A stretch of DNA of 12,172 nt from an uncultured Intrasporangium sp. (GTDB taxonomy: Bacteria > Actinomycetota > Actinomycetes > Actinomycetales > Dermatophilaceae): contig CALMNV010000262.1 in the NCBI GenBank assembly GCA_937873285.1, positions 1-12,172 of the forward strand. Reading direction: 5' to 3'. Below, piece after piece: positions 1 to 12,172 of the stretch. Every line of letters starts with the position of its first letter. Positions within the stretch are counted from its first letter, which is position 1. Below the pieces are notes generated by a model that saw only the letters and a list, made by a program, of their open reading frames with translations, ran no database searches and was not told the DNA's origin. The position numbers were made by a program, and so were the translations under genes.

Positions 1-929
1 AGCAGGGCCGTCGCGTCGGCACGTCGGGGAAGCCGGGCGCCTGCATGCAGGTATGCCGCGTGCGTCCACCCGGGCACGACGACCGGCACGAGCTCGTGGT
101 CGGCCACGAGCCGGGCGACGGCAGGACGCACCTGCGCCCGGTCCAGGCGGAAGTAGTCGGCGAGACAGCGCTCGGTTGCCACGCCGTAGGCTCGCGCGGC
201 GATGCGCACGAGCTCGGCGACGGCGTCGGCGTCCCCCTCGGGCCCCGGCCGATGGAGCCAGGACTCCCGGCAGGAGGGCGGCGCGACGACGTCGAGCGCG
301 GCATACCGGCGCTCGAACTGGCTCGTGCGACCGGCCGAGCTGATGCGACCGGACCAGAAGAGATACTCGAGCGCCGACTTGACCTGTGACCAGTTCCACC
401 CCCAGTCGCCGGTGCCGCGAGGAAGGTCGTCCTGCAGGGCGAGCTCGACCTGACGGGAGGTCAGTGGGCCGCGGCGCTCTATCTCGGCCTGGACCGCCGA
501 GACGAGCTCGGGCCGCTGGGTCCCGACCCGACGCATGGACCCCCAGGACGACTCGGCGGCCCGCCGCATCCGGAAGGCGAGGAGCGGCCAGGTCGCGGGC
601 GGGATGAGGCTTGCCTCGTGGGCCCAGTACTCGACCACCCGGCGAGGCGCACGGTCCCGGGCGGTGTCGAGCAGGCGGAGGTCGTAGGGCCCGAGCCGCG
701 AGAAGAACGGCAGGTAGTGGCTGCGGACCAGAGCGTTGACGCTGTCGATCTGCACCACCCCGACCCGGTCCAGCACGCGTTGCACGTGCCGCGCGGTCCC
801 AGCCCAGGGTTGCGGACGGGAGTCGAGGAAGCCCTGCGCCGCAAGCGTCACCCGGCGGGCCTGCTCCCTCGTCAGCCGAGCTGGCCGGACCCGTGTGCCG
901 GGCGAGCCCGCGGTGCTCGCCGCCCTCAT
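1..929 (-). CDS. YcaQ/AlkZ-type winged-helix DNA glycosylase-like protein (3' end outside window)
   Basis: I translated this frame by hand from the ATG at 929-927; it stays open for 309 codons to the window edge, so the C-terminus is missing (family members are usually near 400 residues). Family hallmarks are visible: a Q-I-D triad at residues 60-62 in a VGVVQIDSVNALVRSHY context, where the HTH_42 family (PF06224) carries its Q-x-Q or Q-x-D catalytic motif, and an EYWAHEASLIP block at about 100-110. Characterised relatives excise alkylated bases or unhook interstrand crosslinks; I infer a related repair role here, and the exact substrate is unknown. The start codon overlaps the stop of the upstream response regulator as ATGA (929-926) with no good separate SD, so translation is probably coupled. 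Annotators often call this family only 'winged helix DNA-binding protein'. The family call is firm; the activity is inferred. Confidence 0.85.
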   Translation of the reverse strand, partial: MRAASTAGSPGTRVRPARLTREQARRVTLAAQGFLDSRPQPWAGTARHVQRVLDRVGVVQIDSVNALVRSHYLPFFSRLGPYDLRLLDTARDRAPRRVVEYWAHEASLIPPATWPLLAFRMRRAAESSWGSMRRVGTQRPELVSAVQAEIERRGPLTSRQVELALQDDLPRGTGDWGWNWSQVKSALEYLFWSGRISSAGRTSQFERRYAALDVVAPPSCRESWLHRPGPEGDADAVAELVRIAARAYGVATERCLADYFRLDRAQVRPAVARLVADHELVPVVVPGWTHAAYLHAGARLPRRADATAL

Positions 930-1615
930 TCGCCTGGGTCGATGAGCCGCTGTCGGACGGCATACATCGCCGCCTCCATCCGGGAGTGCATCTGCAGCTT
1001 GTCGAGGATGTTGCGGATGTGGTTGCGCACCGTGTTCTCGGAGATGAAGAGCTCCTCGGCGATCTGCCGGTTGAGCCGGCCGCGGGCGACCAGGCGCAGG
1101 ATGTCGAGCTCGCGATCGGTCAGCCGGGGCAGCTCGAGCCCCACCGCCGGCGCGGGCGGCGCCTGCAGGGCGCTGAGGGAGGCGAACTCGGTGAGCAGCT
1201 TGGAGGCCATGAGGGGCGAGAGCAGCGACTGGCCGCCATGCAGCCCCCGGATCCCGGCGGCGACCTCCTCGGGAGGCACGTTCTTGAGGAGATAGCCGTT
1301 GGCACCCGCCCGGATCGCGTCGAAGAGATGCGACTCGTCCTCGGAGCTGGTGAGCATCAGGATGCGCGCCCAGGGCAGTCGGTCGCGGACCGCCCGGCAC
1401 GCCTCGACTCCACCACCCTTCGGCATGCTGACGTCCATGACCACGACGTCGGGGACGAGGCGCTCCGCCTGGGCCACCGCCTCCACCCCGTCGGCGGCCT
1501 CCCCGACGACGTCGATGCCCTCCTCCGTCTCGAGAATCGTCAGCAGCCCGCGCCGGTAGAGCGCGTGGTCGTCGACGATGAGGACGCGGATCGGTGTCGT
1601 GAAAGGCCCCTGCAC
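926..1615 (-). CDS. Orphan NarL/LuxR-family response regulator
   Basis: A 229-residue two-domain regulator. The receiver domain (about 9-125) has the acidic pair D15/D16 (VLIVDDHALYRRG), predicted phosphoacceptor D61 (VMDVSMP), T89 and K111. The LuxR-type HTH (about 165-220) reads LTDRELDILRLVARG, then ISENTVRNHIRNILDKL. No histidine kinase lies beside it, so it is an orphan. Its place between hpf and a ycaQ-like gene matches the S. coelicolor regulator I recall as SCO3008 (OrrA); that orthology is from memory and not tested. The start is GTG at 1615-1613, chosen because GGGAG sits 9 nt upstream at 1629-1625. That SD directly follows the T tract of the hpf terminator, leaving little room for a separate promoter; expression may rely on readthrough or on a promoter inside hpf. 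The stop overlaps the next start. Confidence 0.93.
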   Translation of the reverse strand: MQGPFTTPIRVLIVDDHALYRRGLLTILETEEGIDVVGEAADGVEAVAQAERLVPDVVVMDVSMPKGGGVEACRAVRDRLPWARILMLTSSEDESHLFDAIRAGANGYLLKNVPPEEVAAGIRGLHGGQSLLSPLMASKLLTEFASLSALQAPPAPAVGLELPRLTDRELDILRLVARGRLNRQIAEELFISENTVRNHIRNILDKLQMHSRMEAAMYAVRQRLIDPGE

Positions 1616-1624
1616 GGGCCTATG

Positions 1625-1629
1625 CTCCC
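1625..1629 (-). promoter_or_regulatory. Shine-Dalgarno of the response regulator, abutting a terminator
   Basis: GGGAG on the minus strand, 9 nt before the GTG start, begins immediately after the TTTTT of the upstream terminator. It decides the GTG start, because no other in-frame start close by has an SD. Confidence 0.65.
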
Positions 1630-1659
1630 AAAAAGGCGCGACCTTCGGGGTCCTGCGCC
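1630..1659 (-). terminator. Intrinsic terminator downstream of hpf
   Basis: On the minus strand a GGCGC/GCGCC stem continues, after a 2-nt bulge, as GACC/GGTC around a CCGAA loop, and TTTTT follows at 1634-1630. It starts about 20 nt after the hpf stop and is the clearest Rho-independent terminator in the window, the only one with a T tract. Its end lies only 14 nt before the next start codon, so it could also act as an attenuator for the regulator gene. Confidence 0.85.
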
Positions 1660-1678
1660 GACCGGGTGGACGGGCCGC

Positions 1679-2323
1679 TCAGCCGGTGGCGGCGGTGAGG
1701 TCCTCGCCCTCGGCGGTCTCGAGGTGGAGCACTCCATAGCTCCAGCCGCGGCGCCGGTAGACGACGCTCGGACGGTCGGCCTCGGCGTCGTGGAAGAGGA
1801 AGAAGTCGTGACCGACGAGCTCCATCTGGTTGATCGCGTCCTCGAGGGTCATCGGCGCCGCGATGTGGACCTTCTCGCGCACCTCGATGGGCGAGTTGCC
1901 GACCGCTCCGAAGCGGTCGAGGTCGTCCGGCCCGTCGGGCCCCGGCTCGCCGCCGGGCGCTCCGCCGGCCTCGAGCGGCGCGAGCCGCGCACTCGCCTGG
2001 GCAACGGACTCCGGCAGTCGCCGTCCCCGGCTGATCCGCTTGCGGTCGTGGATCCGCCGCAGGCGCTCCATGAGCTTGTCCACCGCCGCGTCCAAGGCCG
2101 CGAACTTGTCGTCCTTGCACGACTCGGCCCGGATGACAGGGCCTTTGGCGTGGCACGTGATCTCGACTCGCTCGGAGCTGCCGTTCACGGCCTCATGCGT
2201 GACGACGACGTCGATGCGGTGCACCTTGGGAGCGAGGGCTGGCACCTTGGCCAAGCGCTCCTCGAGCTGCTCACGGAATCGATCCGGGACCTGGACGTGG
2301 CGTCCAGTGACGACGATCTCCAC
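1679..2323 (-). CDS. hpf: Long-form ribosome hibernation promoting factor (HPF/S30AE family)
   Basis: A 214-residue protein. The N-terminal S30AE domain (about 1-98) opens MEIVVTGRHVQVPD and contains the basic helix DKLMERLRRIHDRKR. A Pro/Gly/Asp-rich linker (about 115-145) leads to the C-terminal dimerisation domain (about 147-204) with FFLFHDAEADRPSVVYRRRG, the signature of long HPF. In the long form this domain pairs two 70S ribosomes into inactive 100S dimers in stationary phase or stress; the S30AE domain occupies the decoding centre. The start is GTG at 2323-2321 behind the near-perfect SD AAGGAGGAA (2334-2326), so strong translation is expected. The 139-nt gap upstream separates it from comF and should hold its promoter, though I see no convincing -35/-10 pair. 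A terminator follows. Comparable to mycobacterial Rv3241c by gene context. Confidence 0.95.
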   Translation of the reverse strand: MEIVVTGRHVQVPDRFREQLEERLAKVPALAPKVHRIDVVVTHEAVNGSSERVEITCHAKGPVIRAESCKDDKFAALDAAVDKLMERLRRIHDRKRISRGRRLPESVAQASARLAPLEAGGAPGGEPGPDGPDDLDRFGAVGNSPIEVREKVHIAAPMTLEDAINQMELVGHDFFLFHDAEADRPSVVYRRRGWSYGVLHLETAEGEDLTAATG

Positions 2324-2325
2324 GG

Positions 2326-2334
2326 TTCCTCCTT
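2326..2334 (-). promoter_or_regulatory. Strong Shine-Dalgarno of hpf
   Basis: AAGGAGGAA on the minus strand, 2 nt before the GTG start. It is the best SD in the window and supports the GTG at 2323 as the true start. Confidence 0.8.
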
Positions 2335-2420
2335 GCTCGCTTGCTGCCGATGCTCCTCGGGCCGGACCGGCCAGCCCTGCCTGCGACCTCCTCCCTTCTG
2401 TTGCGTCGGGCCCAGCCAGG

Positions 2421-2439
2421 CAGCGCCGCTTTCCCGCTG
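2421..2439 (-). terminator. Weak hairpin after comF
   Basis: A CAGCG/CGCTG stem with a 9-nt loop, 23 nt past the comF stop and without a T tract. It may end comF transcripts or be chance in GC-rich DNA. Confidence 0.25.
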
Positions 2440-2462
2440 TCAGGCCCTTCCTACCGCCGACC

Positions 2463-3230
2463 CTACCCCCGGGGGCGGACCGCGGACGCTGGGCGCTCCG
2501 GTGTCCCGGACGCCCTCTGCCCGGCGCGCCTCCCGCCGTGGCGGCGCCTCGTCGCCGCCACGGTCGCGGCGGCCACGCCGGAGGCGCCAGCCTCGTGCAG
2601 CGCCCGGGCAGACTCCGCCAACGTCGCCCCGGTCGTCACGACGTCGTCGACGAGGAGGCAGCGCCGCCCGGCGACGACGGCGGCCCAGCGCGCCTCGACA
2701 AGTAGCGCCCGGTCGAGGTTGCGCGCTCGGTCGCGTTGCCCCAGCCGCGCCTGGTCGGCGATGGCTCGCCCCGCCGACAGCACCGGCGCGACCCGGGTCG
2801 CGGGGCGGCGATCCGGGGCAGTGGCGAGGACCAGTCGCACGAGCTCGTGGAGGGGCCGCTCACCGCGGGCGCGGCAGGCACGCGCGGAGGACGGGGCCGG
2901 GACGAGCACCACCGGATCCGTCGACCACCCGGTCGCCGTCAGCGCCGCGTCGACGGACCGGGCGAGCAGCGGTGCGAGAACCGCTGCCAGGTCCCGCCGG
3001 CCCTCGTCCTTCCACGCGCTGATCGCCGATCTCAGCGGCTCGTCGTAGGAGCCCCAGGCGTAGGTGGGCGGCATCCCGGCCGGAGCGGGGTGCGGCACCA
3101 CCCGGCCCGGCCCCCCCGCAGACTCGAGCCGCTCCAGCGCGGCGGCGCAGCGCCGGCACCACGGCGTCCCCGGACGCCGGCAGGCGGCGCACTCCAGCGG
3201 CAGGACGAGGTCGAGCAGCGCACGGATCAC
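2463..3230 (-). CDS. comF: ComF-family phosphoribosyltransferase-like protein
   Basis: 255 residues. The N-terminus carries a probable zinc site, C14-x2-C17 and C25-x2-C28, around CAACRRPGTPWCRRC. The phosphoribosyltransferase fold follows: VPAPSSARACRARGERPLHEL at about 110-130 and the PRPP-binding loop CLLVDDVVTTGATLAES at about 191-207. In Bacillus, ComF supports DNA uptake and its relatives resemble GntX; the actinobacterial copy is conserved beside lpqB but its task is not established, so competence should not be assumed. The tail from about residue 227 is Arg-rich and low in complexity, and not typical of the fold. The start is GTG at 3230-3228 with a poor SD, and two hairpins lie just upstream, suggesting low or structured initiation. 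A 111-nt gap separates it from lpqB. Confidence 0.9.
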   Translation of the reverse strand: MIRALLDLVLPLECAACRRPGTPWCRRCAAALERLESAGGPGRVVPHPAPAGMPPTYAWGSYDEPLRSAISAWKDEGRRDLAAVLAPLLARSVDAALTATGWSTDPVVLVPAPSSARACRARGERPLHELVRLVLATAPDRRPATRVAPVLSAGRAIADQARLGQRDRARNLDRALLVEARWAAVVAGRRCLLVDDVVTTGATLAESARALHEAGASGVAAATVAATRRRHGGRRAGQRASGTPERPASAVRPRG

Positions 3231-3239
3231 CTGCCAAGC

Positions 3240-3255
3240 CTCGCTTCGGCGCGAG
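3240..3255 (-). other. Hairpin just upstream of the comF start
   Basis: A CTCGC/GCGAG stem with a 6-nt loop (GCCGAA on the minus strand), ending 9 nt before the comF GTG. In mRNA it would sit over the initiation region, which has only a weak SD. Any regulatory role is inferred. Confidence 0.3.
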
Positions 3256-3282
3256 GGCGCACCGACCCGCGCGGGGGCGCCC
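3255..3282 (-). terminator. GC-rich hairpin in the lpqB-comF gap
   Basis: A GGGCGC/GCGCCC stem (3255-3260 with 3277-3282) encloses the perfect palindrome CCCGCGCGGG at 3266-3275. It lies about 60 nt past the lpqB stop and lacks a T tract. It is a candidate terminator for mtrAB-lpqB, or a leader structure of comF. Confidence 0.4.
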
Positions 3283-3331
3283 CGTGGACGAGCGCGAGAT
3301 CTTCGTGCGCCCCTGTGGACAGCGCCGACGC
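3277..3331. repeat. Imperfect direct repeat with DnaA-box-like cores
   Basis: Two copies of a roughly 23-nt unit lie in the lpqB-comF gap, at 3277-3299 and 3308-3331. Both start GCGCCCC and contain GTGGAC. The second core reads CTGTCCACA on the minus strand (3322-3314), one mismatch from the actinobacterial DnaA box TTGTCCACA; the first, TCGTCCACG (3291-3283), is weaker. Binding is not shown; at this GC content one such match may be chance. Confidence 0.3.
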
Positions 3332-3341
3332 GCGAGGCGGC

Positions 3342-5165
3342 TCAGCGGCTTGGCACGAGCAGGTCGCTGCCCGTGGCGATCTGCCGCCAGGTGGCTCCGG
3401 CGCGGGCAAGGATCCGGTTGTCCTCCGTGATGACGACGAGCCCCCGAGGCCCGCCTACCGAGGTGATGGAGGTGCCGGAGGGCACGGGAGCCAGCCGGCT
3501 CTCCGCGGGAGCAGCCGCCCCGCGTCGGCGCATGCCTTCCAGCCCCGCTCCCACGTGGCCGACCCAGGGCCGGACGGGGTCTCGCTGGTCGGTGCGGCCG
3601 AGGACGGCGAACGCGTTGGCCTCCACCCAGGTCACGTCGCGCATCAGCGTGAGCGGCTGCGCCTGACGCCAGGGGGCCGCGAGGGAGAGGGGCTTGCCGT
3701 TCGGCGCCCGGACGACGCCGGTCAGTCCGAGCTGGGTGTCGCTGCCGTCGACCCGGCTGCTGATGACGAGCAGGCGGGTCGAGTCGGGAGAGACCGCCAG
3801 GGCGTCGATGCGGCGGCCGGACAGCCAGGGCGCGCTGACGGCAAACGGCGCCGAGCGCTCCGTGGCGCTGCCCGTCGCGAGTGCCCACACTCTCGGCTTC
3901 CCGTCTGGTGCCGTGCCGCCGACCCAGAGGTAGCCGAGGGAGTCGTACTCGGGCCGGGTCAGGCGCTCGCCGAACGGTGCGACGGGCAGGAACTGGTTGC
4001 CGCGCCAGCGGGAGAGCTCCTTGAGGTCACCGCCGACGGCAGCCATCTCCTTGCCGTCGGCGGAAAGCGCCAGTCGGACCCATCCCTCGGGGATGCGGGC
4101 GGGGTCGCCGTCCCGGGTCGGGGTGGTGGAGCGCCGCTTGTCGGGCGGCCCGTCGACGACGTTGCGCGGGTCGATGCGAGTGAGGCGGTCATGCATGCGC
4201 ACGATGGCGGTGTCGAAGGACGGGGCCGGCACGGTCGCGTACCCGAGGTCGGATGCCGACGGCACGGCGCTGGCGAGTCCGGGCAGCTCGAGCGGGATGC
4301 CCTCCACCGCCAGCGAGACGGATCCCACCGCCGGCACCTGCTGCAGCGTGGCGATGAGCTGGGCCCACATCGCCGCCCGCTCGATGGGGTCGGCGTCGAG
4401 AGCCTGGGGGCTGAGGTTGACGATCGCCCGCCCGTTGTCGACCGGGACCGCGTTGACCGCGAGCTTGGTGTTGGAGGGCACGCCGGTGGTGACCGCGTCG
4501 GCGAGGTAGTCCGGCACGGCGCTGAGCTGGGCCCGGGCCAGGGCGGTCGCCATGGCCGTGCCCGCCTCGATCCACCGGGTGTCGGGCACCAGGCGCCGGC
4601 CGCTCGGCGTCACGTAGAAGACCTGCCGGGCGGCATACAGCCGGTCGAAGGCGCTACTGTCGAGCCACAGCCCGAAGCCCGTGGAAGGCAGCTCGATGCG
4701 CCACTGGCCACCGACCTTGGTCAGACGCAGGGTGACCGAGACCATGGTGCCGGCCCGGAGCTCCTCGTAGCGGCCCTCGGGTGTGAGCCGGGCGACCGCG
4801 GTGGTGCGCACCTGCAGCCGGTCGGGCCCGGTGCGGCGCACCTGCAGGTCGTCGGCGGTGTCGTAGACGATGACGTCGGCGCTGGACCAGCGCCAGAGGT
4901 CCACGGAGGACGGCGCGAGATAGGACTTGCCCGTCTCCCGGTTCTCGTCGGCGTCCTCGCCGGCGCGGATGAGGCCGAGCGCGACGGCCTCCTGAGAGGC
5001 TCCGGCGACGGGCCCCTGTGGCACGAGGCGGACGGGGTCGCTGATCGGCTCATCCAGCCGCCTGCCCTCGATGACCGCAGAGGTGCCGGGCAGCCCGCCG
5101 CAACCGGTGACACTGAGCATCACGGTGGCCGCGAGGGACAGCGCGACGGCGCGCCTGGCCCTCAT
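3342..5165 (-). CDS. lpqB: Lipoprotein LpqB, GerMN and propeller-like domains
   Basis: 607 residues from the ATG at 5165. The N-terminus is a lipoprotein signal: MRARR, a hydrophobic stretch at 6-18, and a lipobox VTGC with predicted lipidated Cys22. A GerMN-type domain covers about 180-296 (QVFYVTPSGRRLVPDTRWIE through AIVNLSPQALDADP and AVEGIPLELPG). The rest (about 325-600) holds blade-like repeats such as VRLALSADGKEMAAV and IDALAVSPDSTRLLVISS, typical of LpqB. In mycobacteria LpqB acts outside the membrane with the MtrB sensor and affects MtrA signalling; I infer the same here. The start overlaps the mtrB stop as ATGA and lacks its own SD, indicating coupling. A longer in-frame reading reaches 5372, but it would add 69 Arg-rich residues and bury the signal peptide. 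Confidence 0.95.
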   Translation of the reverse strand: MRARRAVALSLAATVMLSVTGCGGLPGTSAVIEGRRLDEPISDPVRLVPQGPVAGASQEAVALGLIRAGEDADENRETGKSYLAPSSVDLWRWSSADVIVYDTADDLQVRRTGPDRLQVRTTAVARLTPEGRYEELRAGTMVSVTLRLTKVGGQWRIELPSTGFGLWLDSSAFDRLYAARQVFYVTPSGRRLVPDTRWIEAGTAMATALARAQLSAVPDYLADAVTTGVPSNTKLAVNAVPVDNGRAIVNLSPQALDADPIERAAMWAQLIATLQQVPAVGSVSLAVEGIPLELPGLASAVPSASDLGYATVPAPSFDTAIVRMHDRLTRIDPRNVVDGPPDKRRSTTPTRDGDPARIPEGWVRLALSADGKEMAAVGGDLKELSRWRGNQFLPVAPFGERLTRPEYDSLGYLWVGGTAPDGKPRVWALATGSATERSAPFAVSAPWLSGRRIDALAVSPDSTRLLVISSRVDGSDTQLGLTGVVRAPNGKPLSLAAPWRQAQPLTLMRDVTWVEANAFAVLGRTDQRDPVRPWVGHVGAGLEGMRRRGAAAPAESRLAPVPSGTSITSVGGPRGLVVITEDNRILARAGATWRQIATGSDLLVPSR

Positions 5166-6901
5166 GGCTGCCGATCCGCGGCGGCGGCAGGTGCTGTGGC
5201 AGAGCCGACCGTCGCCGCGCGACCGCCGGGCGGCGGGTCGGGTGGAGACGTGCGCGGTGGGCTCGCCGGCCCGAGCCGGTGATCGGATCGCGCGGCGCCG
5301 AGGGGGTTCAGGGGCAGCGGCGAGGAGACGATCGCGCCCTCCGCGTGCCGCGGCAGGGTCAGCCGGAAGCACGACCCCTCACCGGGGGCGCCCCACGCCT
5401 CCAGCCGGCCGGCGTGCAGCCGGGCGTCCTCGAGGGAGATCGCCAGCCCCAACCCGGTGCCCCCCGTGGTCCGGGCTCGGGCGGGGTCGGCCCGCCAGAA
5501 CCGGGTGAAGACGAGCGCGGCCTCCCCGGGCCGCAGGCCGACCCCGTGGTCGCGCACCGTCACCGCGACCGCCGAGTCGTTGGAGCCGAGCGAGACCTCG
5601 ATCGGGCGGCCGTCCCCGTGCTCGATGGCGTTGGACACGAGGTTGCGCAGGATCCGCTCGATGCGTCGCGAGTCCATCTCGGCGACAACCAGCCCGGGAG
5701 GCTCGCGCACCGCGATGGTGCTGCCCCGGCGCTCGGCCAGCGGCGCGAGCGACGCGACGACCCGGTCCACGCAGGCGCCGAGGTCGGTCGCCTCGACCTC
5801 CAGGGACGCCGCCCCGGCGTCGAACCGGGAGATCTCCAGCAGGTCGGACAGCAGCGACTCGAACCGGTCGAGCTCGCCGCGCAGCAGCTCCGCCGACCGC
5901 GCCACAGCGGGGTCGAACGACGAGCGCGCGTCGTGGATGAGCTCGCCCGCCATCCGGATCGTCGTGAGCGGCGTGCGCAGCTCGTGCGAGACGTCGGAGA
6001 CGAAGCGCTGCTGCACCCGCGAGAGGTTCTCCAGCTGGGCGATCTGCTGCTGGATGGACGTCGCCATGGCGTTGAACGAGTTGCCGAGCCGCGCCAGGTC
6101 GTCCTCGCCCTTGGCGCGCATCCGCTCGCCGAGGTGTCCGTCGGCGAAGCGCTCCGCGACCCGGGCGGCCCGTCGGACGGGGTCGGCCACCAGTCGGGTC
6201 ACGACGAAGGCGATGATGCCGATGAGCACGATGAGGGCCGCGCCGCCCAGCAGGAAGGTCTGCCCGATGAGGCTGATGATCTCCCGCTCGCGCTGCATCG
6301 GGTAGATGAAGTAGATGCCGTAGGTGCCCGCGACGGGAATCTCGATGGGCTGCCCGACGATGACGGCCGACACCTCGTCGCCGTTCTCCGTGACGGTCGC
6401 CACCTGCAGGTGCTGACGCCCGGGAGCTGTCGAGACCGCCTGGCGCAGGGTCGCGGGGATGTAGCGCAGACCCACCGAGCTCGTCTCGACCGGTGGGATG
6501 ACGAACGGCCGGCTGTTGCTGTCGGCCCGGGTGATCACGACGTAGCGCCGCTCGCTCCGCGCGTTCTGGGTGTAGCCCTTGGCGAGGTCTGTGGCCATCT
6601 GCGTCAAGGTGGCCACCGACTCGGTCTTGTCCGTCGCGTCGAACTGCCGCTGGGCGTCGCGGGCCAGCACGAGGCTGTCGTCCGCGGCGATCTTCTGGCG
6701 GCCGTCGACCAGGCCCTGGGCGATCGAGCCGTAGAGGTAGGTGCCGACGGCGCTCAGGACGAGTAGGCCGAGCAGCATCGTGACGACGACGACGCGGAAG
6801 GCGAGCGACGCCCGCCACAGGTGCCGCAGGCGGCGGCTCCCGCCCCGCAGCGCAGACCCGGCCCGCTCGGCGAGCCCGCGCGCGACGGCCCGCGCGGCCA
6901 T
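5162..6901 (-). CDS. mtrB: Sensor histidine kinase MtrB
   Basis: 579 residues from the ATG at 6901. TM1 is at about 34-57, an extracytoplasmic sensor region at 58-210, TM2 at about 214-236 and HAMP at about 237-290. The HisKA domain has phosphoacceptor His306 (VSDVSHELRTPL). The ATPase domain shows the N box (LRNLVSNAIEHGDG, about 418-431), G1 (DHGVGLRPGE, about 451-460), an F-box-like VFTRFWR and G2 (TGGTGLGLAI). MtrB phosphorylates MtrA and is tied to the division site and septal wall synthesis in mycobacteria. A Pro/Ala-rich tail (about 522-579) follows the kinase core, as in other actinobacterial MtrB. The start lies 1 nt past the mtrA stop (TGAGATG). An upstream in-frame GTG at 6934 would add 11 residues and overlap mtrA; I prefer 6901, though neither has a strong SD. 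Confidence 0.96.
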   Translation of the reverse strand: MAARAVARGLAERAGSALRGGSRRLRHLWRASLAFRVVVVTMLLGLLVLSAVGTYLYGSIAQGLVDGRQKIAADDSLVLARDAQRQFDATDKTESVATLTQMATDLAKGYTQNARSERRYVVITRADSNSRPFVIPPVETSSVGLRYIPATLRQAVSTAPGRQHLQVATVTENGDEVSAVIVGQPIEIPVAGTYGIYFIYPMQREREIISLIGQTFLLGGAALIVLIGIIAFVVTRLVADPVRRAARVAERFADGHLGERMRAKGEDDLARLGNSFNAMATSIQQQIAQLENLSRVQQRFVSDVSHELRTPLTTIRMAGELIHDARSSFDPAVARSAELLRGELDRFESLLSDLLEISRFDAGAASLEVEATDLGACVDRVVASLAPLAERRGSTIAVREPPGLVVAEMDSRRIERILRNLVSNAIEHGDGRPIEVSLGSNDSAVAVTVRDHGVGLRPGEAALVFTRFWRADPARARTTGGTGLGLAISLEDARLHAGRLEAWGAPGEGSCFRLTLPRHAEGAIVSSPLPLNPLGAARSDHRLGPASPPRTSPPDPPPGGRAATVGSATAPAAAADRQP

Positions 6902-6902
6902 C

Positions 6903-7580
6903 TCAGGCCGGGCCGGCCTTGTAGCCGACGCCACGGACGGTGACGACGATCTCAGGACGCTCCGGGTCGTGCTCGATCTTGGAGCGCAGCCGCTGCACGT
7001 GGACGTTGACGAGCCGGGTGTCGCCGGCGTGCCGGTAGCCCCACACCTGCTCCAGCAGCAGCTCCCGGGTGAACACCTGCCACGGCTTGCGGGCCAGCGC
7101 CACCAGGAGGTCGAACTCCAGCGGGGTCAGCGACAGCGCGACGCCGTCGCGCCTGACCGAGTGGCCGGCGACGTCGATCTCGAGGTCGCCGATGGTGAGC
7201 CGCTCCGGCGCCGGCTCGTCGCCGCGCCGGAGCCGGGCACGGACGCGGGCGATGAGCTCCTGGGGCTTGAACGGCTTGACGACGTAGTCGTCGGCGCCGG
7301 ACTCCAGCCCCACGACGACGTCGACGGTGTCGGTGCGCGCGGTCAGCATGACGATGGGCACGCCGCTCTCCCCGCGGATGCGCCGGCACACCTCCATGCC
7401 GTCGAGCCCGGGCAGCATCACGTCGAGCAGGACGAGGTCGGGCCGGCTCTCGCGGAAGATGGCGAGCGCCTCGGAGCCGTCGGCGCAGTGGGCAACCTCC
7501 AGCCCCTCGTTGCGCAGCACGATGCCGAGCATCTCCGCCAGCGCCAGGTCGTCGTCGACGACCAGCACCCGACCTCTCAC
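6903..7580 (-). CDS. mtrA: OmpR-family response regulator MtrA
   Basis: 225 residues from the GTG at 7580 (M/V-RGRVLVVDDD). The receiver domain has D9/D10, phosphoacceptor D53 (VLLDVMLP), T80 and K102 (DDYVVKPFKP). The C-terminal winged helix spans about 128-222, with LTPLEFDLLVALARKPWQVFTRELLLEQVWGY as two adjoining conserved parts and the recognition region DTRLVNVHVQRLRSKIE. The sequence is close to mycobacterial MtrA along its whole length. MtrA controls cell wall hydrolases, division genes and, in several actinobacteria, development. I chose the GTG because GGAGGGA lies 6 nt upstream and because it gives the usual length and N-terminus; an in-frame ATG at 7616 would add 12 atypical residues. 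It is first in the mtrA-mtrB-lpqB operon; its promoter should lie in the 137-nt gap after ahcY. Confidence 0.97.
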   Translation of the reverse strand: MRGRVLVVDDDLALAEMLGIVLRNEGLEVAHCADGSEALAIFRESRPDLVLLDVMLPGLDGMEVCRRIRGESGVPIVMLTARTDTVDVVVGLESGADDYVVKPFKPQELIARVRARLRRGDEPAPERLTIGDLEIDVAGHSVRRDGVALSLTPLEFDLLVALARKPWQVFTRELLLEQVWGYRHAGDTRLVNVHVQRLRSKIEHDPERPEIVVTVRGVGYKAGPA

Positions 7581-7586
7581 GACCGC

Positions 7587-7593
7587 TCCCTCC
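7587..7593 (-). promoter_or_regulatory. Shine-Dalgarno fixing the mtrA start
   Basis: GGAGGGA on the minus strand, 6 nt before the GTG at 7580. It lies inside the longer reading from 7616, so it favours the downstream GTG. Confidence 0.75.
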
Positions 7594-7635
7594 GTGGCGG
7601 CGCCGCGCACCGCCATCTTGTCGAAAGTCTGTCAC

Positions 7636-7647
7636 ACCCCGCGGGGT
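7636..7647. promoter_or_regulatory. 12-bp palindrome in the mtrA upstream region
   Basis: ACCCCGCGGGGT is a perfect inverted repeat 56 nt upstream of the mtrA start and past the ahcY terminator hairpin, where an operator could sit. It does not resemble the MtrA direct-repeat site I know of. Pure G/C palindromes occur by chance at this composition. Confidence 0.25.
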
Positions 7648-7661
7648 CGGCCCTCAGGTGT

Positions 7662-7698
7662 CGTATGCCGCCCACCCGCTGCGGGCAGGCGGCACACG
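7662..7698 (-). terminator. Long hairpin after ahcY
   Basis: An interrupted stem: CGT/ACG outer pairs, one mismatch, TGCCGCC/GGCGGCA (7666-7672 with 7688-7694), a 2-nt internal loop, then CCCGC/GCGGG around a single T (in practice CCG/CGG with a slightly larger loop). It begins about 20 nt after the ahcY stop. No T tract follows, as is common in actinobacteria. One arm contains the octamer GTATGCCG (7663-7670) and the other a near copy. Confidence 0.7.
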
Positions 7699-7717
7699 TC
7701 TCGGCCGACGCCGCCGC

Positions 7718-9193
7718 TCAGTAGCGGTAGTGCTCGGGCTTGTACGGTCCGGAGACGTCGACGCCGAGGTATTCCGCCTGGTCCTTGCTCAGCTCGGTCA
7801 GCCGCACGCCGAGGGCCTCGAGGTGCAGCCGGGCCACCTTCTCGTCGAGCACCTTGGGCAGCGTGTAGACCTGCGCGGCGTACTCGTCGGTCTTGGTGAA
7901 CAGCTCGATCTGGGCGATCGTCTGGTTGGAGAACGAGTTGCTCATGACGAAGGACGGGTGCCCGGTCGCGTTGCCGAGGTTCATCAGCCGGCCCTCGGAC
8001 AGCACGATGACCGACCGCTCCGGACGGCCGTCGGCCGCCGGGAAGGTCCACTCGTGCACCTGGGGCTTGATCTGCGTCTTGGTGACCCCGGGAACTCGAG
8101 CCAGGCCGGCCATGTCGATCTCGTTGTCGAAGTGGCCGATGTTGGCCACGATCGCCTTGCTCTTCATCTGCTGCATGTGCTCGGCGGTGATGACGTCGTA
8201 GCACCCGGTGGCGGTGACGAAGATGTCTCCCTGGGCGACGACGTCCTCGAGCCGGGCCACCTGGTAGCCCTCCATCGCGGCCTGCAGCGCGCAGATCGGG
8301 TCGATCTCGGTCACCACGACGCGCGCGCCCTGGCCGGCGAGGGCCTGGGCGCAACCCTTTCCGACGTCGCCGAAGCCGCACACGACGGCGACCTTGCCGC
8401 CGATGAGCACGTCCGTGGCCCGGTTGAGCCCGTCGATGAGGGAGTGCCGGCAGCCATACTTGTTGTCGAACTTGCTCTTGGTCACCGAGTCGTTGACGTT
8501 GATGGCGGGAAAGAGCAGCTCGCCCGTCTCCGCCAGCTGGTAGAGCCGGTGCACGCCGGTCGTGGTCTCCTCCGTGACGCCCTTGACGCCGGCCGCGACG
8601 GTGGTCCACTTCTGCGGGTCCGCCAGGAGCGTGCCGCGGACGAGCTCCTTGAAGACGGCGAACTCCTCGGAGTCCGCCTCGGTCGTCGCTGGCACCTGCC
8701 CGGCCTGCTCCCACTCGCGGCCCTTGTGCACGAGCATGGTCGCGTCGCCGCCGTCGTCGAGGATCATGTTCGGCCCGACCGGCGAGAGGTCGGAGCCCCC
8801 GGAGCCGGCGGGCCAGCTGAGGATCTGGTCGGTGCACCACCAGTACTCCGCCAGCGTCTCGCCCTTCCAGGCGAAGACGGGGACGCCCTGGGGGTCCGCC
8901 GGTGTGCCGCGGGGTCCGACGACGACAGCGGCAGCTGCCTCGTCCTGGGTCGAGAAGATGTTGCACGACGCCCACCGCACCTGCGCCCCGAGGGCGGTCA
9001 GGGTCTCGATGAGGACGGCCGTCTGCACGGTCATGTGCAGCGACCCGGCGATGCGCGCGCCGCGCAGCGGCTGGCTGGCGGCATACTCCTCGCGCAGCGC
9101 CATGAGACCGGGCATCTCGTGCTCGGCCAGGCGGATCTGGTGGCGGCCTGCCTCGGCGAGGCTCAGGTCGGCAACCTTGTGGTCAAAGGACAT
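7718..9193 (-). CDS. ahcY: S-adenosyl-L-homocysteine hydrolase (adenosylhomocysteinase)
   Basis: 491 residues. The enzyme splits SAH to adenosine and homocysteine with a tightly bound NAD, relieving product inhibition of methyltransferases. Visible features: [15 protein letters not shown] (about 51-65), [14 protein letters not shown] (76-89), the catalytic acidic cluster [22 protein letters not shown]239 and D243 in [14 protein letters not shown], the NAD loop [10 protein letters not shown] (271-280), H354 in NIGHFDNE, and the C-terminal KPEHYRY that closes the partner's cofactor site. The extra segment near 150-195 matches the longer bacterial form, as in M. tuberculosis SahH. The ATG at 9193 follows GGAAGAG with 7 nt between. 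A possible -10 (TACACT, 9288-9283) lies about 90 nt upstream, with no clear -35. In mycobacteria tmk separates sahH from mtrA; here nothing does. Confidence 0.97.
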
Positions 9194-9217
9194 GGGGGAT
9201 CTCTTCCGTTGATCGTC

Positions 9218-9229
9218 GGTCTGCAGACC
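9218..9229. promoter_or_regulatory. 12-bp palindrome in the ahcY leader
   Basis: GGTCTGCAGACC is a perfect inverted repeat 24 nt upstream of the ahcY ATG, between the possible -10 and the SD. It could be an operator or a small RNA hairpin. It is not the SAH riboswitch consensus as I know it. Confidence 0.35.
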
Positions 9230-9253
9230 CGGCGCGCCCCTCTGGGCTCATCG

Positions 9254-9269
9254 GTGGGTCGTCTCCCAC
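9254..9269 (-). terminator. Hairpin after the DUF808 gene
   Basis: A perfect GTGGG/CCCAC stem with a 6-nt loop, 23 nt past the DUF808 stop. There is no T tract. It could end the DUF808 transcript or form part of the ahcY 5' leader. Confidence 0.35.
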
Positions 9270-9292
9270 GCCGGCAGTGGCCAGTGTAGGCG

Positions 9293-10225
9293 CTAGTGCG
9301 CGGCGGCTCTCCTGCGCGGGAGGACCTGCAGGGCGGCGACGACGAGGGCGCCGACCACGAGCCCCAGCAGCGCGGAGGCGAGCGTGTTGGCCACCCACGC
9401 GAGTATGCCGCCCACCCCCGCGACGCCCGACACCGCCACCTCGAGGTGGTGGACGAGGTCGTAGGGGCCCTTCCAGCCGAGCTCGTCCATGCCGACGAGG
9501 AGGATGTGCCCGCCGACCCAGAGCATGGCCGCGATGCCAACCGTCGCCAGCAGCTGGAGCAGCCTCGGCATGCCCTTGACGAGCGCCCGGCCCACACGCT
9601 GGGCGGCGCCGGAGCCGCGCTGGCCGAGTCGCAGGCCGATGTCGTCCATCTTCACGATGAGCGCCACCACCCCGTAGACCAGGGCGGTGATGAGCACCGC
9701 GACGACGATGAGGATGGCGCCGCGCGCGACGAACGGCTCGTTCTCCACCTCGTTGAGGGCGATGACCATGATCTCGGCCGAGAGGATGAAGTCGGTCCGG
9801 ATGGCGCCCGAGACCACGGTGTTCTCGCTGTCCGCGTCACCACTGACGGGCTGCTTCTCGCCGCCGTGGCCCGAGAGCGCCTCCCACACCTTCTCCGCGC
9901 CCTCGTAGCACAGATACGCACCGCCGAGCATGAGGATGGGAGTGAGCAGCCACGGCAGGAACTGGCTGAGCAGCATGGCGGCCGGCAGGATGATGAGCAG
10001 CTTGTTGCGCAGCGATCCCATGGCGATGCGCTTGATGATGGGCAGCTCGCGCTCGGGTGACAGTCCCTGCACGTAGCGCGGGGTGACGGCCGTGTCGTCG
10101 ACGACGACGCCGGTCGCCTTGAGGCTCGCCTTGGTGGCGGCCGCGCCCACGTCGTCGACCGAGGCCGCGGCCAGCTTCACGAGCGCCGCGACATCGTCCA
10201 AGAGGGCTACCAGTCCACCTGCCAT
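9293..10225 (-). CDS. DUF808/YedI-family inner membrane protein
   Basis: 310 residues. The N-terminus MAGGLVALLDDVAALVKLAAASVDDVGAA, read as two adjoining parts, is characteristic of the DUF808 (PF05661) family that includes E. coli YedI; next come VVVDDTAVTPRYVQGL and ELPIIKRIAMGSLRNK, also typical. Hydrophobic segments lie at about 73-107 (one or two helices), 165-192, 219-246 and 265-303, giving four or five membrane helices. A charged segment between (about 108-160) includes YEGAEKVWE and ENTVVSGAIRTDFILSAEIMVIALNEV in consecutive blocks. Biochemical function is unknown across the family. The ATG at 10225 has no SD, but TACGAT ends 6 nt upstream, so the mRNA may be leaderless. Neighbouring hairpins suggest it is transcribed alone. 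Confidence 0.92.
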   Translation of the reverse strand: MAGGLVALLDDVAALVKLAAASVDDVGAAATKASLKATGVVVDDTAVTPRYVQGLSPERELPIIKRIAMGSLRNKLLIILPAAMLLSQFLPWLLTPILMLGGAYLCYEGAEKVWEALSGHGGEKQPVSGDADSENTVVSGAIRTDFILSAEIMVIALNEVENEPFVARGAILIVVAVLITALVYGVVALIVKMDDIGLRLGQRGSGAAQRVGRALVKGMPRLLQLLATVGIAAMLWVGGHILLVGMDELGWKGPYDLVHHLEVAVSGVAGVGGILAWVANTLASALLGLVVGALVVAALQVLPRRRAAAH

Positions 10226-10231
10226 GGCGAC

Positions 10232-10237
10232 ATCGTA
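10232..10237 (-). promoter_or_regulatory. Candidate -10 box for a leaderless DUF808 transcript
   Basis: TACGAT fits TANNNT and ends 6 nt before the ATG, the spacing that puts the transcription start at the A of ATG. No SD precedes the gene. No convincing -35 is visible. Confidence 0.4.
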
Positions 10238-10246
10238 GGTGGACGC

Positions 10247-10264
10247 CGAGCCCTGCCGGGCTCG
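10247..10264 (-). terminator. Second hairpin after the coiled-coil gene
   Basis: A perfect 7-bp stem, CGAGCCC/GGGCTCG, with a 4-nt loop and no T tract. With the hairpin at 10286-10299 it forms a pair between the coiled-coil stop and the DUF808 promoter. Confidence 0.5.
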
Positions 10265-10285
10265 TGGACCACGCGGTATGCCGCA

Positions 10286-10302: not shown

Positions 10303-12172
10303 TCAGCGCGCCCTGGCGTCGCGCAGCAGCCGCACGTCGTCCCGGGCCGCGGCCACCGCGTCGAGCACGGCCCGCACGTCGTCGGTATCGCCGCCGCCGG
10401 CGCCGACCGCGGCCAGCAGGTCCTGCTGGCTCGCCGCGACCTCTTCGCGAAGGCCTTGGAGGTCCTCCTGGGCGGCCACGACCTGGCCCAGCACGACGGA
10501 CAGGTCCTCGTGCAGATCAGCGACGACGGCCTCGACGTCGCTCGTCACGTCGACCGGAGCGGGCTCGGGGCGGGCCCGGCTCAGCACCTGGCGCAGCCGG
10601 TCGAACTGGCCGCGGACCTCCTCGGCGAGGGCGCCCACATCGGCGCGCACCTCTCCTGCGAGGCTCTCGACGACCGGGCCGACGTCGTAGCCCGGCGTGG
10701 CGGGCGCGCCGTCGCGCCCGGTCAGCGTCTCCAGCACGTCGGCCCGCAGCCCGGACACCTCCTCGTTTCCGGCGACGAGCTGCTGGGCGAGGATGGCGAG
10801 GTCGTCGCGGACATCGGCCAGCAGCGTCTCGAGCTCGGCCCGCACGTCGGCGGCCGCCAGCGGCTCGGGCTGGTCGGCCACGAGGCGGCGCACGCTGTCG
10901 AGCTCGTCCCGCAGGTCGGAGACGGCCGCGCCCAACCCCGCGTCGATGTCGGCGCGGAGCCCGTCGACGAGCTCGGCCACGTCCGGTCCGGGGTCGACCT
11001 CGACCTCCTCGTAAGCCTCCTCGTAGGCCTCTTCCGCCGGCTCGCCCTCTGGTGCGGCCAGCGCGGCGACGGCGTCCGCCAGCTCGGCCAGCGATTCGCG
11101 GAGCGCGTCGAGCTCCTGCTGTGTGCCGGACATGCTCCGCACGATCACCGAGAGGTCGTCGCCCACCTCGGCGAGGGGCGGCGCCAGCTCGTCTCGCAAC
11201 CGGCGGACCAGCGCGTCAGTGTCCACCGCGGGCTGATCGCGCCTGTCGCCGGCCGCCACCAGGGTCTCGCGCACGTCGTCGAGCTCGCGCTGGCTGGCTG
11301 CGAGGCGCTTGAGCACGAGCGTGAGGTCCTCGTGCAGATCGCCGACCGCGCCCAGCACGTCGTCACGCGCCGACGCCACCACCGGTCCGAGCACGGCGGT
11401 GGGATCCTCGCCCGAGCCAGCCGTGGACGCGGCCGCTTCGGTGTGGCTGGCGGTCAGCTCGGTGATGGCGTCCCGCAAGGACTCGAGCTCCTGGTTGCCG
11501 GCCAGCACCTGGCGCATGACCAGGGCGAGGTCGTCGTGCAGCTCGGCGATGAGCGACTCCGCGTCGGTGCGGACCTCGCTGGTGCTGGCGGCGACGGCAC
11601 GCTCGAGTGCGGCGGGCAGCTCCTTCTCGATGCGGGTCCGCAGCTCCTCGACCCCGCGCTGGCTGGCCGAGGCGCGCTTGGCCATCGTCGCCATGTCATC
11701 CGCCAGCGCGAGGACGTCGGTGCGGAGGCGCTCGACCGGCCGCTCGTCGGGCTGGTGCGCGGCCAGGGCGGTGTCGACGACGGCCTCGAAGCGGCTCTGG
11801 AGCTCGTCGGCAACCTCTTCCACGTCGGCGCGAGCGGCCAGTCCGTCCACGAACTCCCGCAACTCGACGATGTCGCTGCGGACCGCGAGCGTCTCCACGA
11901 GCTCCCGCAGCTCCTCGAGCTCCTGCTGGCCCGCCAGCCGACGCGACAGGACGGCGCGGTCGTCGTGGACCTCGGTCGCGAGGCGGTCCATCTCGTCGCG
12001 CAGGTCGTTGATCCACGGCCGCAGCGCGGCCTCGACTTCGGCGCGCACGGCGTCGGCGGTGAGCGGCGGCCCCTCGGGCTCGGTGAGCTCGCGCACCCGC
12101 CGGGCCAGTACGGCCCGCTCGTCGCGCAGCTCGCCGATCAGCGCGTCGAGTTGTCCCGTGAAGCGCTCGGCG
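10303..12172 (-). CDS. Repetitive coiled-coil protein of unknown function (5' end outside window)
   Basis: I see 622 codons; the frame stays open past the GTG at 12096 to the window edge, where it still encodes repeat-like helix (QLDALIGELRDERAVLARR), so the start lies upstream. The protein is almost wholly predicted long helices rich in Asp, Glu, Arg, Leu, Val and Ala. I count no cysteine, one tryptophan and three lysines. No membrane segment or catalytic motif is visible. Seven clear copies and one partial copy of a roughly 30-residue unit recur (see the repeat entry), separated by spacers; an acidic EEAYEEAYEEVEVD linker lies near the middle. I do not recognise the family. Database hits to SMC-like or apolipoprotein-like coiled coils would probably reflect composition. 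A structural, scaffold or envelope-associated role is possible but unsupported. Two hairpins follow the stop. Confidence 0.85.
   Translation of the reverse strand, partial: AERFTGQLDALIGELRDERAVLARRVRELTEPEGPPLTADAVRAEVEAALRPWINDLRDEMDRLATEVHDDRAVLSRRLAGQQELEELRELVETLAVRSDIVELREFVDGLAARADVEEVADELQSRFEAVVDTALAAHQPDERPVERLRTDVLALADDMATMAKRASASQRGVEELRTRIEKELPAALERAVAASTSEVRTDAESLIAELHDDLALVMRQVLAGNQELESLRDAITELTASHTEAAASTAGSGEDPTAVLGPVVASARDDVLGAVGDLHEDLTLVLKRLAASQRELDDVRETLVAAGDRRDQPAVDTDALVRRLRDELAPPLAEVGDDLSVIVRSMSGTQQELDALRESLAELADAVAALAAPEGEPAEEAYEEAYEEVEVDPGPDVAELVDGLRADIDAGLGAAVSDLRDELDSVRRLVADQPEPLAAADVRAELETLLADVRDDLAILAQQLVAGNEEVSGLRADVLETLTGRDGAPATPGYDVGPVVESLAGEVRADVGALAEEVRGQFDRLRQVLSRARPEPAPVDVTSDVEAVVADLHEDLSVVLGQVVAAQEDLQGLREEVAASQQDLLAAVGAGGGDTDDVRAVLDAVAAARDDVRLLRDARAR
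10429..12132 (-). repeat. Degenerate internal repeats of the coiled-coil gene
   Basis: The unit reads roughly [DE]-[LV]-H-[DE]-D-L-x-L-V-x4-[LV]-A-x-x-Q-E-L-x-x-L-R. Copies lie at 11887-11973, 11617-11703, 11455-11544, 11251-11340, 11080-11169, 10723-10815 and 10429-10518, with a partial one at 12085-12132. Spacing is irregular, about 54 to 118 codons, and the widest gaps contain half-units such as SDLRDELDSVRRLV. DNA identity is mostly lost, except for AGGTCCTCGTGCAGATC (17 bp), present at both 10502-10518 and 11324-11340. Confidence 0.75.

Follow-up and report, generated by a model that had tools for sequence, protein, structure and literature searches.

The systems closest to the one described here are short DNA words that single genomes carry in large numbers. 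In PMC3630211, the DNA uptake sequences (DUS) of Neisseriaceae are described as occurring in thousands of copies and in dialects, with one genome that holds two dialects in equal number and with lineages that have no such word; the excerpted text of PMC12616744 adds inverted-repeat terminators in DUS systems, as well as two types of word within one family, the Pasteurellaceae, for the uptake signal sequences (USS). HIP1 (highly iterated palindrome 1) of cyanobacteria is described, in excerpts of PMC4390886, as an 8-mer found about once per kb, with alternate words in some lineages, other lineages without HIP1, and some HIP1-rich genomes without a CGATCG methyltransferase. Within Actinobacteria, Micrococcus luteus becomes competent via Flp pili, ComEA and ComEC (excerpts of PMC6370729), and for mycobacteria, according to PMC10526031, no uptake sequence is on record. 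Here we describe a non-palindromic 8-mer, GTATGCCG, that recurs in a stretch of 12,172 nucleotides from an uncultured Intrasporangium sp. (contig CALMNV010000262.1, hereafter the window) and in many genomes of its family. Judged by its anatomy, it may be a DUS- or USS-like self-recognition word for DNA uptake, a reading to which we assign a probability of about 0.5.

A preliminary description of the window had proposed GTATGCCG as a selected genomic word, with eight copies, four per strand, where about one or fewer would be expected. The exact count agrees in number, strand and position; the expectation is 0.39 copies from the base composition of the window (72.8% GC) and 0.11 on average in dinucleotide shuffles, which yielded one copy at most and in none of 200 cases reached eight. 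The metagenome-assembled genome (MAG) to which the window belongs as contig 262 is 58% complete (1.84 Mb, 344 contigs) and contains 1341 copies of the word (673 and 668 on the two strands), versus 189 of its reversal (89 and 100). The same description had named a genome-wide count near expectation as a result that would refute its proposal, and the count lies far above expectation. Against an order-3 Markov model, GTATGCCG is the top over-represented 8-mer in four larger samples from word-high genomes, namely 146 kb of the source genome (z 46), 96 kb of G007 (z 49), 77 kb of G042 (z 30) and 420 kb of G064 (z 79), and it occurs once in 100 kb of G068, a word-low relative of similar GC content.

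With a gene caller and a codon model from our own scripts, the word exceeds the expectation from protein sequence and codon usage in all six coding phases of all four samples, by 2.4- to 150-fold, several phases holding just one to three copies. In the source genome, the Tyr-Ala phase has 59 copies against 3.8 expected, the Ala-Tyr phase 38 against 0.9 and the Gly-Ile phase 8 against 0.2. Intergenic DNA is likewise enriched, with 14 observed versus 0.6 expected copies in the source genome, 49 versus 1.0 in G064, 20 versus 0.4 in G007 and 7 versus 0.15 in G042; intergenic and genic densities are 1.13 and 0.60 per kb in G064, and 0.88 and 0.83 per kb in the source genome. Compared to a word-masked model, the enrichment of GTATGCCG is about 60- to 170-fold, and that of its one-base neighbours with an expectation above 5 is 0.6- to 2.5-fold. 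For neighbours with a lower expectation the ratios spread from 0 to 11, on 0 to 9 copies; one of them is GAATGCCG in G042, with 8 copies against 0.9. These counts show that GTATGCCG is an exact word at the level of the DNA, beyond what codon usage and composition would lead one to expect.

The word is also retained between species against codon preference. Eleven pairs of related genomes were compared, nine for GTATGCCG and two for its variant GGATGCCG; since three genomes were used twice (G016, G066, G067) and both directions were counted, the following counts are not independent. At conserved tyrosines, the codon TAT was kept 37 times out of 46 where it lay in the word and 41 times out of 128 elsewhere; for GCA the figures were 21 of 32 and 59 of 452, and for ATA 9 of 13 and 3 of 10. 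The whole word was kept in 66 of 145 cases, whereas 8-mers matched to it in AT content were kept at a rate of 22%; G072/G034 (0 of 4 words kept) and G021/G066 (0 of 1) are exceptions. The preliminary description had suggested that constraint acts on the DNA itself, and the excess in six coding phases and between genes, the exactness of the word and its codon retention across species show this.

Among 89 genomes of the same family, 46 have 221–1125 copies of GTATGCCG per Mb and 43 have 2–90. Outside the family, none of 58 genomes of the same order and none of 213 from other orders of the class has a high density; the densest of the 213 reaches about 51 per Mb by our reading. Named carriers include Knoellia aerolata, Ornithinimicrobium tianjinense and a Serinicoccus, with 9, 11 and 6 copies, respectively, in 15–21 kb. 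GTATGCCG does not lead the ranking in every 20-kb sample, and G018, which is high genome-wide, shows three copies. On a midpoint-rooted tree of 59 genomes, built from three proteins of one locus, lineages high and low in GTATGCCG interleave, with switches between sisters in G004/G010, G046/G008, G011 versus G014 and G061, and G025/G068.

Several genomes that are low in GTATGCCG or mixed have a close variant among their top words, in several frames and mostly also between genes. Two of these variants were counted genome-wide, the others in samples of 20–97 kb. GTACGGCG has 3117 copies in G068 (19 intergenic against 1.0 expected in the sample), 1251–1550 in G023, G076, G047, G053 and G080, 1031 in G039, and up to 579 in the other genomes of the family. 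GGATGCCG has 3816–3949 copies in each of G026, G063 and G016, and in the mixed genomes G043 and G078 it stands alongside GTATGCCG with 2195 and 2099 copies; in G001 it is weak, with 1336 copies compared to 614 and 949 in the genus mates G052 and G082 and a 20-kb sample that has no clear excess over the codon model. In the samples we further found GTATGCGG in G020, GTATGACG alongside GTATGCCG in G003, G027 and G004, GAATGCCG alongside GTATGCCG in G012, GTATGTCG in G034, GTATGCCC in G046, and GTACGCCG in G047 and G039. The variants differ by one or two bases, and the pattern G-N-A-Y-G-N-S-G fits all of them except GTATGCCC. Dialects differ between members of one genus: G025 uses GTATGCCG and G068 GTACGGCG, and the GTACGGCG carrier G053 has genus mates, G002 and G083, in which neither GTATGCCG nor GTACGGCG nor GGATGCCG is abundant genome-wide. 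GTATGCCG and its dialects are thus real and widespread in the family.

GGATGCCG is also abundant in a second family of the order (4491 copies in G124, 4128 in G139 and 1548 in G108); in 40 kb of G124 there are 46 coding copies against 8.7 expected and 11 intergenic ones against 0.6, and the excess in 20 kb of G139 is weaker (11 against 3.0). GTACGGCG is raised to about 180–220 copies per Mb in G092, G110, G126 and G141 of a further family, f5. This may mark a weak dialect there, but in 20 kb of G092 no clear excess was seen (5 against 1.9). A word of Arthrobacter, Micrococcus and Sinomonas, CGACGNCG, was rejected as a dialect, being about 1.1- to 2.5-fold above codon expectation. At eight loci of Arthrobacter and relatives (L032–L035, L039, L040, L050, L060) its excess is about 1.5- to 2.5-fold, and it has ACGNCG in common with the GTACGNCG dialects.

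The copies are balanced between strands and scattered. Forward and reverse totals are nearly equal across word-high genomes, and in 21 stretches of the complete G064 chromosome we counted 140 forward and 141 reverse copies, with no stretch clearly one-sided and with near-random spacing (coefficient of variation of the gaps 1.04). Neighbouring copies less than 60 bp apart and wholly intergenic are inverted in 21 cases and direct in 3, several of them forming perfect hairpins. At 204 intergenic copies in 182 kb of word-high genomes, the flanks are weakly biased towards A at −8 (39% versus 16% background), A at −5 (28%) and C or T at +1. The spreading small repeat that the preliminary description had listed among its candidates is ruled out, as the copies have no common flanks beyond these few weak positions. 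The density of the word climbs with local GC content (Spearman 0.41 in 84 windows of 5 kb from one genome), a rise that base composition does not predict. One 20-kb stretch of G064, the one genome covered in this respect, holds 3 copies, whereas the other 20 stretches average 13.9; by our own reading of its proteins, made with no family search, this stretch is a copper-resistance island that also contains insertion-sequence genes. A separate dispersed repeat with the core TCGAGTGGCCA, often followed by GTTCCG or CTTCCG, occurs 30 times in the 146 kb of the source genome (for example in L179, L170 and L169) and not in the window; it looks like a repetitive extragenic palindromic (REP)-type element.

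Within the window, six copies lie in genes. Two of them, at 51..58 (+) and 299..306 (−), fall into the same AlkZ-like gene on the minus strand, in the codons GCG GCA TAC and CGG TAT GCC GCG, and the copy at 958..965 (−) lies in the gene of a LuxR-type response regulator (ATG TAT GCC GTC). The copy at 4631..4638 (−), also read as TAT GCC, lies in a gene with a Germane domain, which we take to be LpqB-like because a histidine kinase and a response regulator are encoded next to it. The copy at 9079..9086 (−) is in ahcY (GAG TAT GCC GCC), and the one at 9403..9410 (+) is in a DUF808 gene with the minus-strand codons GGC GGC ATA CTC; all codons that the preliminary description had singled out as unusual are therefore present. 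Its placement of both intergenic copies in hairpins stood for one of them. The copy at 7663..7670 (+), downstream of ahcY, forms one arm of a strong, near-perfect hairpin at 7662..7698 (−), composed of the word and an inverted partner with one mismatch; the hairpin is terminator-like, with no T-run seen, and has a folding energy of −33.9 kcal/mol (7650–7702, minus strand). The copy at 10276..10283 (+) has only the 4-bp stem of a small inverted repeat, GCGG-TATG-CCGC, at 10273–10284. The best named relative of the window's AhcY among the matches listed is from Knoellia aerolata (80% identity), which makes Dermatophilaceae/Intrasporangiaceae the probable family, although that list may omit very near genomes; a contig labelled as an Acidobacteria MAG (L042), perhaps mis-binned, encodes an AhcY 75% identical to this actinobacterial protein. 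At 10303–12096 (−) the window encodes a 597-residue protein whose sole Pfam match, to a putative adhesive domain, is borderline; several similar repeats are visible by eye in this protein.

An uptake-type sequence, which the preliminary description had rated the most speculative of its candidates, fits this anatomy best, in density, balanced strands, inverted pairs and dialects. Under such a mechanism, a putative DNA-binding protein at the cell surface would recognise the word, and DNA bearing it would be preferentially imported via a Flp/Tad-type pilus and a ComEA-ComEC channel and then recombined. Copies would be maintained by the resulting molecular drive, together with any benefit of importing DNA from kin; a shift in receptor specificity would found a new dialect, and intergenic inverted pairs might be reused as terminators. 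The machinery is largely at hand: ComEC was found in 138 of 147 genomes (the misses in the family being G000, G032, G033 and G084; it was not found in the 58%-complete source MAG either), DprA in 74 of 74 and TadE in 72 of 74. Of the 42 word-positive loci, 40 have ComEA beside comEC, compared to 13 of the 18 word-negative ones. This trend speaks weakly for uptake, and the word-negative label comes mostly from 15–20 kb per genome, so that a rare or longer dialect may be missed; the two word-positive misses are G026 and, at a contig end, G045. As a separate observation, a palindrome, AAGTACTT, is over-represented in the pooled ComEC-region loci, word-low and word-high alike, and might represent a binding site conserved in this region.

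Several results weigh against uptake. None of the genes tested tracks the presence of the word: ComEC, ComEA, DprA and TadE failed as correlates, being common in word-negative genomes too, and the word-positive G026 has no ComEA that we could find beside its comEC. The type IVa pilus failed likewise, with PilT above its curated cut-off in one of 89 family genomes (G025, at C2:219671); a second PilT-type ATPase, in G005, is below the cut-off and split over contigs C233 and C236. Alignment columns that co-vary with the GTACGGCG dialect numbered 0 of 192 in ComEA and 4 of 710 in ComEC, which is no signal when compared to control proteins at our threshold (1 of 945, 3 of 280, 1 of 305 and 2 of 233), and no candidate receptor for the word emerged. 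Two Micrococcus loci (43 kb), from the genus with competence dependent on Flp pili, contain no word of comparable strength. Finally, neighbouring copies in coding or mixed positions are inverted in 27 cases and direct in 3; inversion is as strongly favoured within genes as between them and thus a general preference that extends beyond terminators, so the inverted pairs need no terminator reading. Because the machinery is present but does not discriminate word-positive from word-negative lineages, we hold the uptake reading at even odds.

Its main rival, which we consider unlikely, is a repair or methylation word resembling HIP1, where modification or mismatch repair spares those mutations that generate the word and removes the rest. 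HIP1 has a similar density and is likewise swapped for alternate words in some lineages (excerpts of PMC4390886), and genomes lacking all of PF00145, PF01555 and PF02384, the only methyltransferase families searched, are more frequent among word-negative (3 of 12) than word-positive ones (1 of 38), a weak trend in its favour. Yet HIPs are palindromes and neither GTATGCCG nor its variants are, and the three families are too patchy to serve as correlates, PF00145 being missing in 14, PF01555 in 23 and PF02384 in 15 of the 38 word-positive genomes; G034, which carries the word and is estimated as 100% complete in 10 contigs, has none of them. These same two observations weaken the methylation site considered in the preliminary description, although a missing methyltransferase does not by itself dispose of a HIP1-like word, since HIP1 can be abundant in genomes that lack a CGATCG methyltransferase. 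Nor are one-mismatch precursors strongly depleted: among those with an expectation above 5 the lowest ratio is 0.62, which likewise rules out a Vsr-like or other conversion bias and speaks against a context-dependent mutator, from which such depletion would be expected.

Third in rank, and improbable in our view, is a binding site for an abundant chromosome-organising or nucleoid protein that structures the chromosome or marks self DNA. The spread of the word over the whole genome, its scarcity where GC is low and in a single stretch that resembles an island, and the weak extended footprint (A at −8, C or T at +1) would suit such a site. With a structural protein, however, it is difficult to see why all sites should change by one or two bases from one relative to the next; such a protein would not lead one to expect so many inverted pairs either, and none of this kind is known to use thousands of exact 8-mers. 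A signal for recombination or segregation, like Chi or KOPS (FtsK-orienting polar sequence), would also be a non-palindromic 8-mer enriched genome-wide. Chi and KOPS are strand-biased, however, and the balance of the two strands in G064 already contradicts this explanation, leaving it very little credence. Least probable of all, to the point of being negligible, is a bias in codon pairs or mutation without any function of the DNA. Tyr-Ala is the commonest coding phase in the source genome and in G064, and sense copies exceed antisense ones in G064 genes (126 versus 100). However, the excess spans all six phases and intergenic DNA, which refutes the Tyr-Ala pairing that the preliminary description had named as a possible full explanation and rules out codon pairs in general; moreover, unusual codons are retained mostly inside the word, a relative of similar GC content is devoid of it but for one sampled copy, and its density climbs with GC.

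We therefore retain uptake as the favoured explanation. In its broader form, which we propose tentatively and from comparative data, transformation in Actinobacteria would involve sequence-specific self-recognition in at least this family and one other of the order. Its dialects, from GTATGCCG to GAATGCCG, would switch even between members of one genus, and, given the rarity of PilT in the family, its receptor would have to differ from ComP, a minor pilin of type IVa. We found no report of GTATGCCG as a whole word in open-licence PubMed Central text; matches to GTATGCC, GGCATAC or CGGCATAC, and those listed for over-represented words in Intrasporangiaceae, were unrelated by title, and no title listed for uptake sequences in Actinobacteria or Micrococcus reported such a word. 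As far as these searches go, a DUS- or USS-like word in Actinobacteria is unreported. If the proposal is correct, it would add a third, independent and dialect-forming case, in a Gram-positive phylum, and make the roles of selection and molecular drive testable in a new setting; dozens of environmental genera would then be expected to possess a competence that has escaped notice, and surface receptors that recognise DNA by its sequence might emerge as a new class. Even if GTATGCCG is no uptake word, an exact, switching, family-wide 8-mer at such density calls for an explanation.

Compared to the known systems, as far as the cited excerpts describe them, GTATGCCG resembles the DUS of Neisseriaceae in its many exact copies, in dialects one to a few bases apart, in lineages without the word and in inverted pairs. 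It differs in being a different word, of 8 rather than 10–12 bp, in a Gram-positive phylum of high GC content, and in having no obvious ComP beside it; its role in uptake is, here, proposed by analogy. With the USS of Pasteurellaceae it shares the nature of a short word enriched genome-wide, but again the word is a different one, and its flanks show no more than a faint preference for A at positions −8 and −5; the receptor candidate for USS is a type IV minor pilin. Chi and KOPS are short, non-palindromic, genome-wide words as well, set apart by a strand bias that GTATGCCG does not show. HIP1 matches it in the frequency of roughly one 8-mer per kb and in alternate words by lineage, whereas HIPs are palindromic and generally accompanied by matching methyltransferases, and GTATGCCG and its variants are non-palindromic, with none of the three methyltransferase families common to all carriers.

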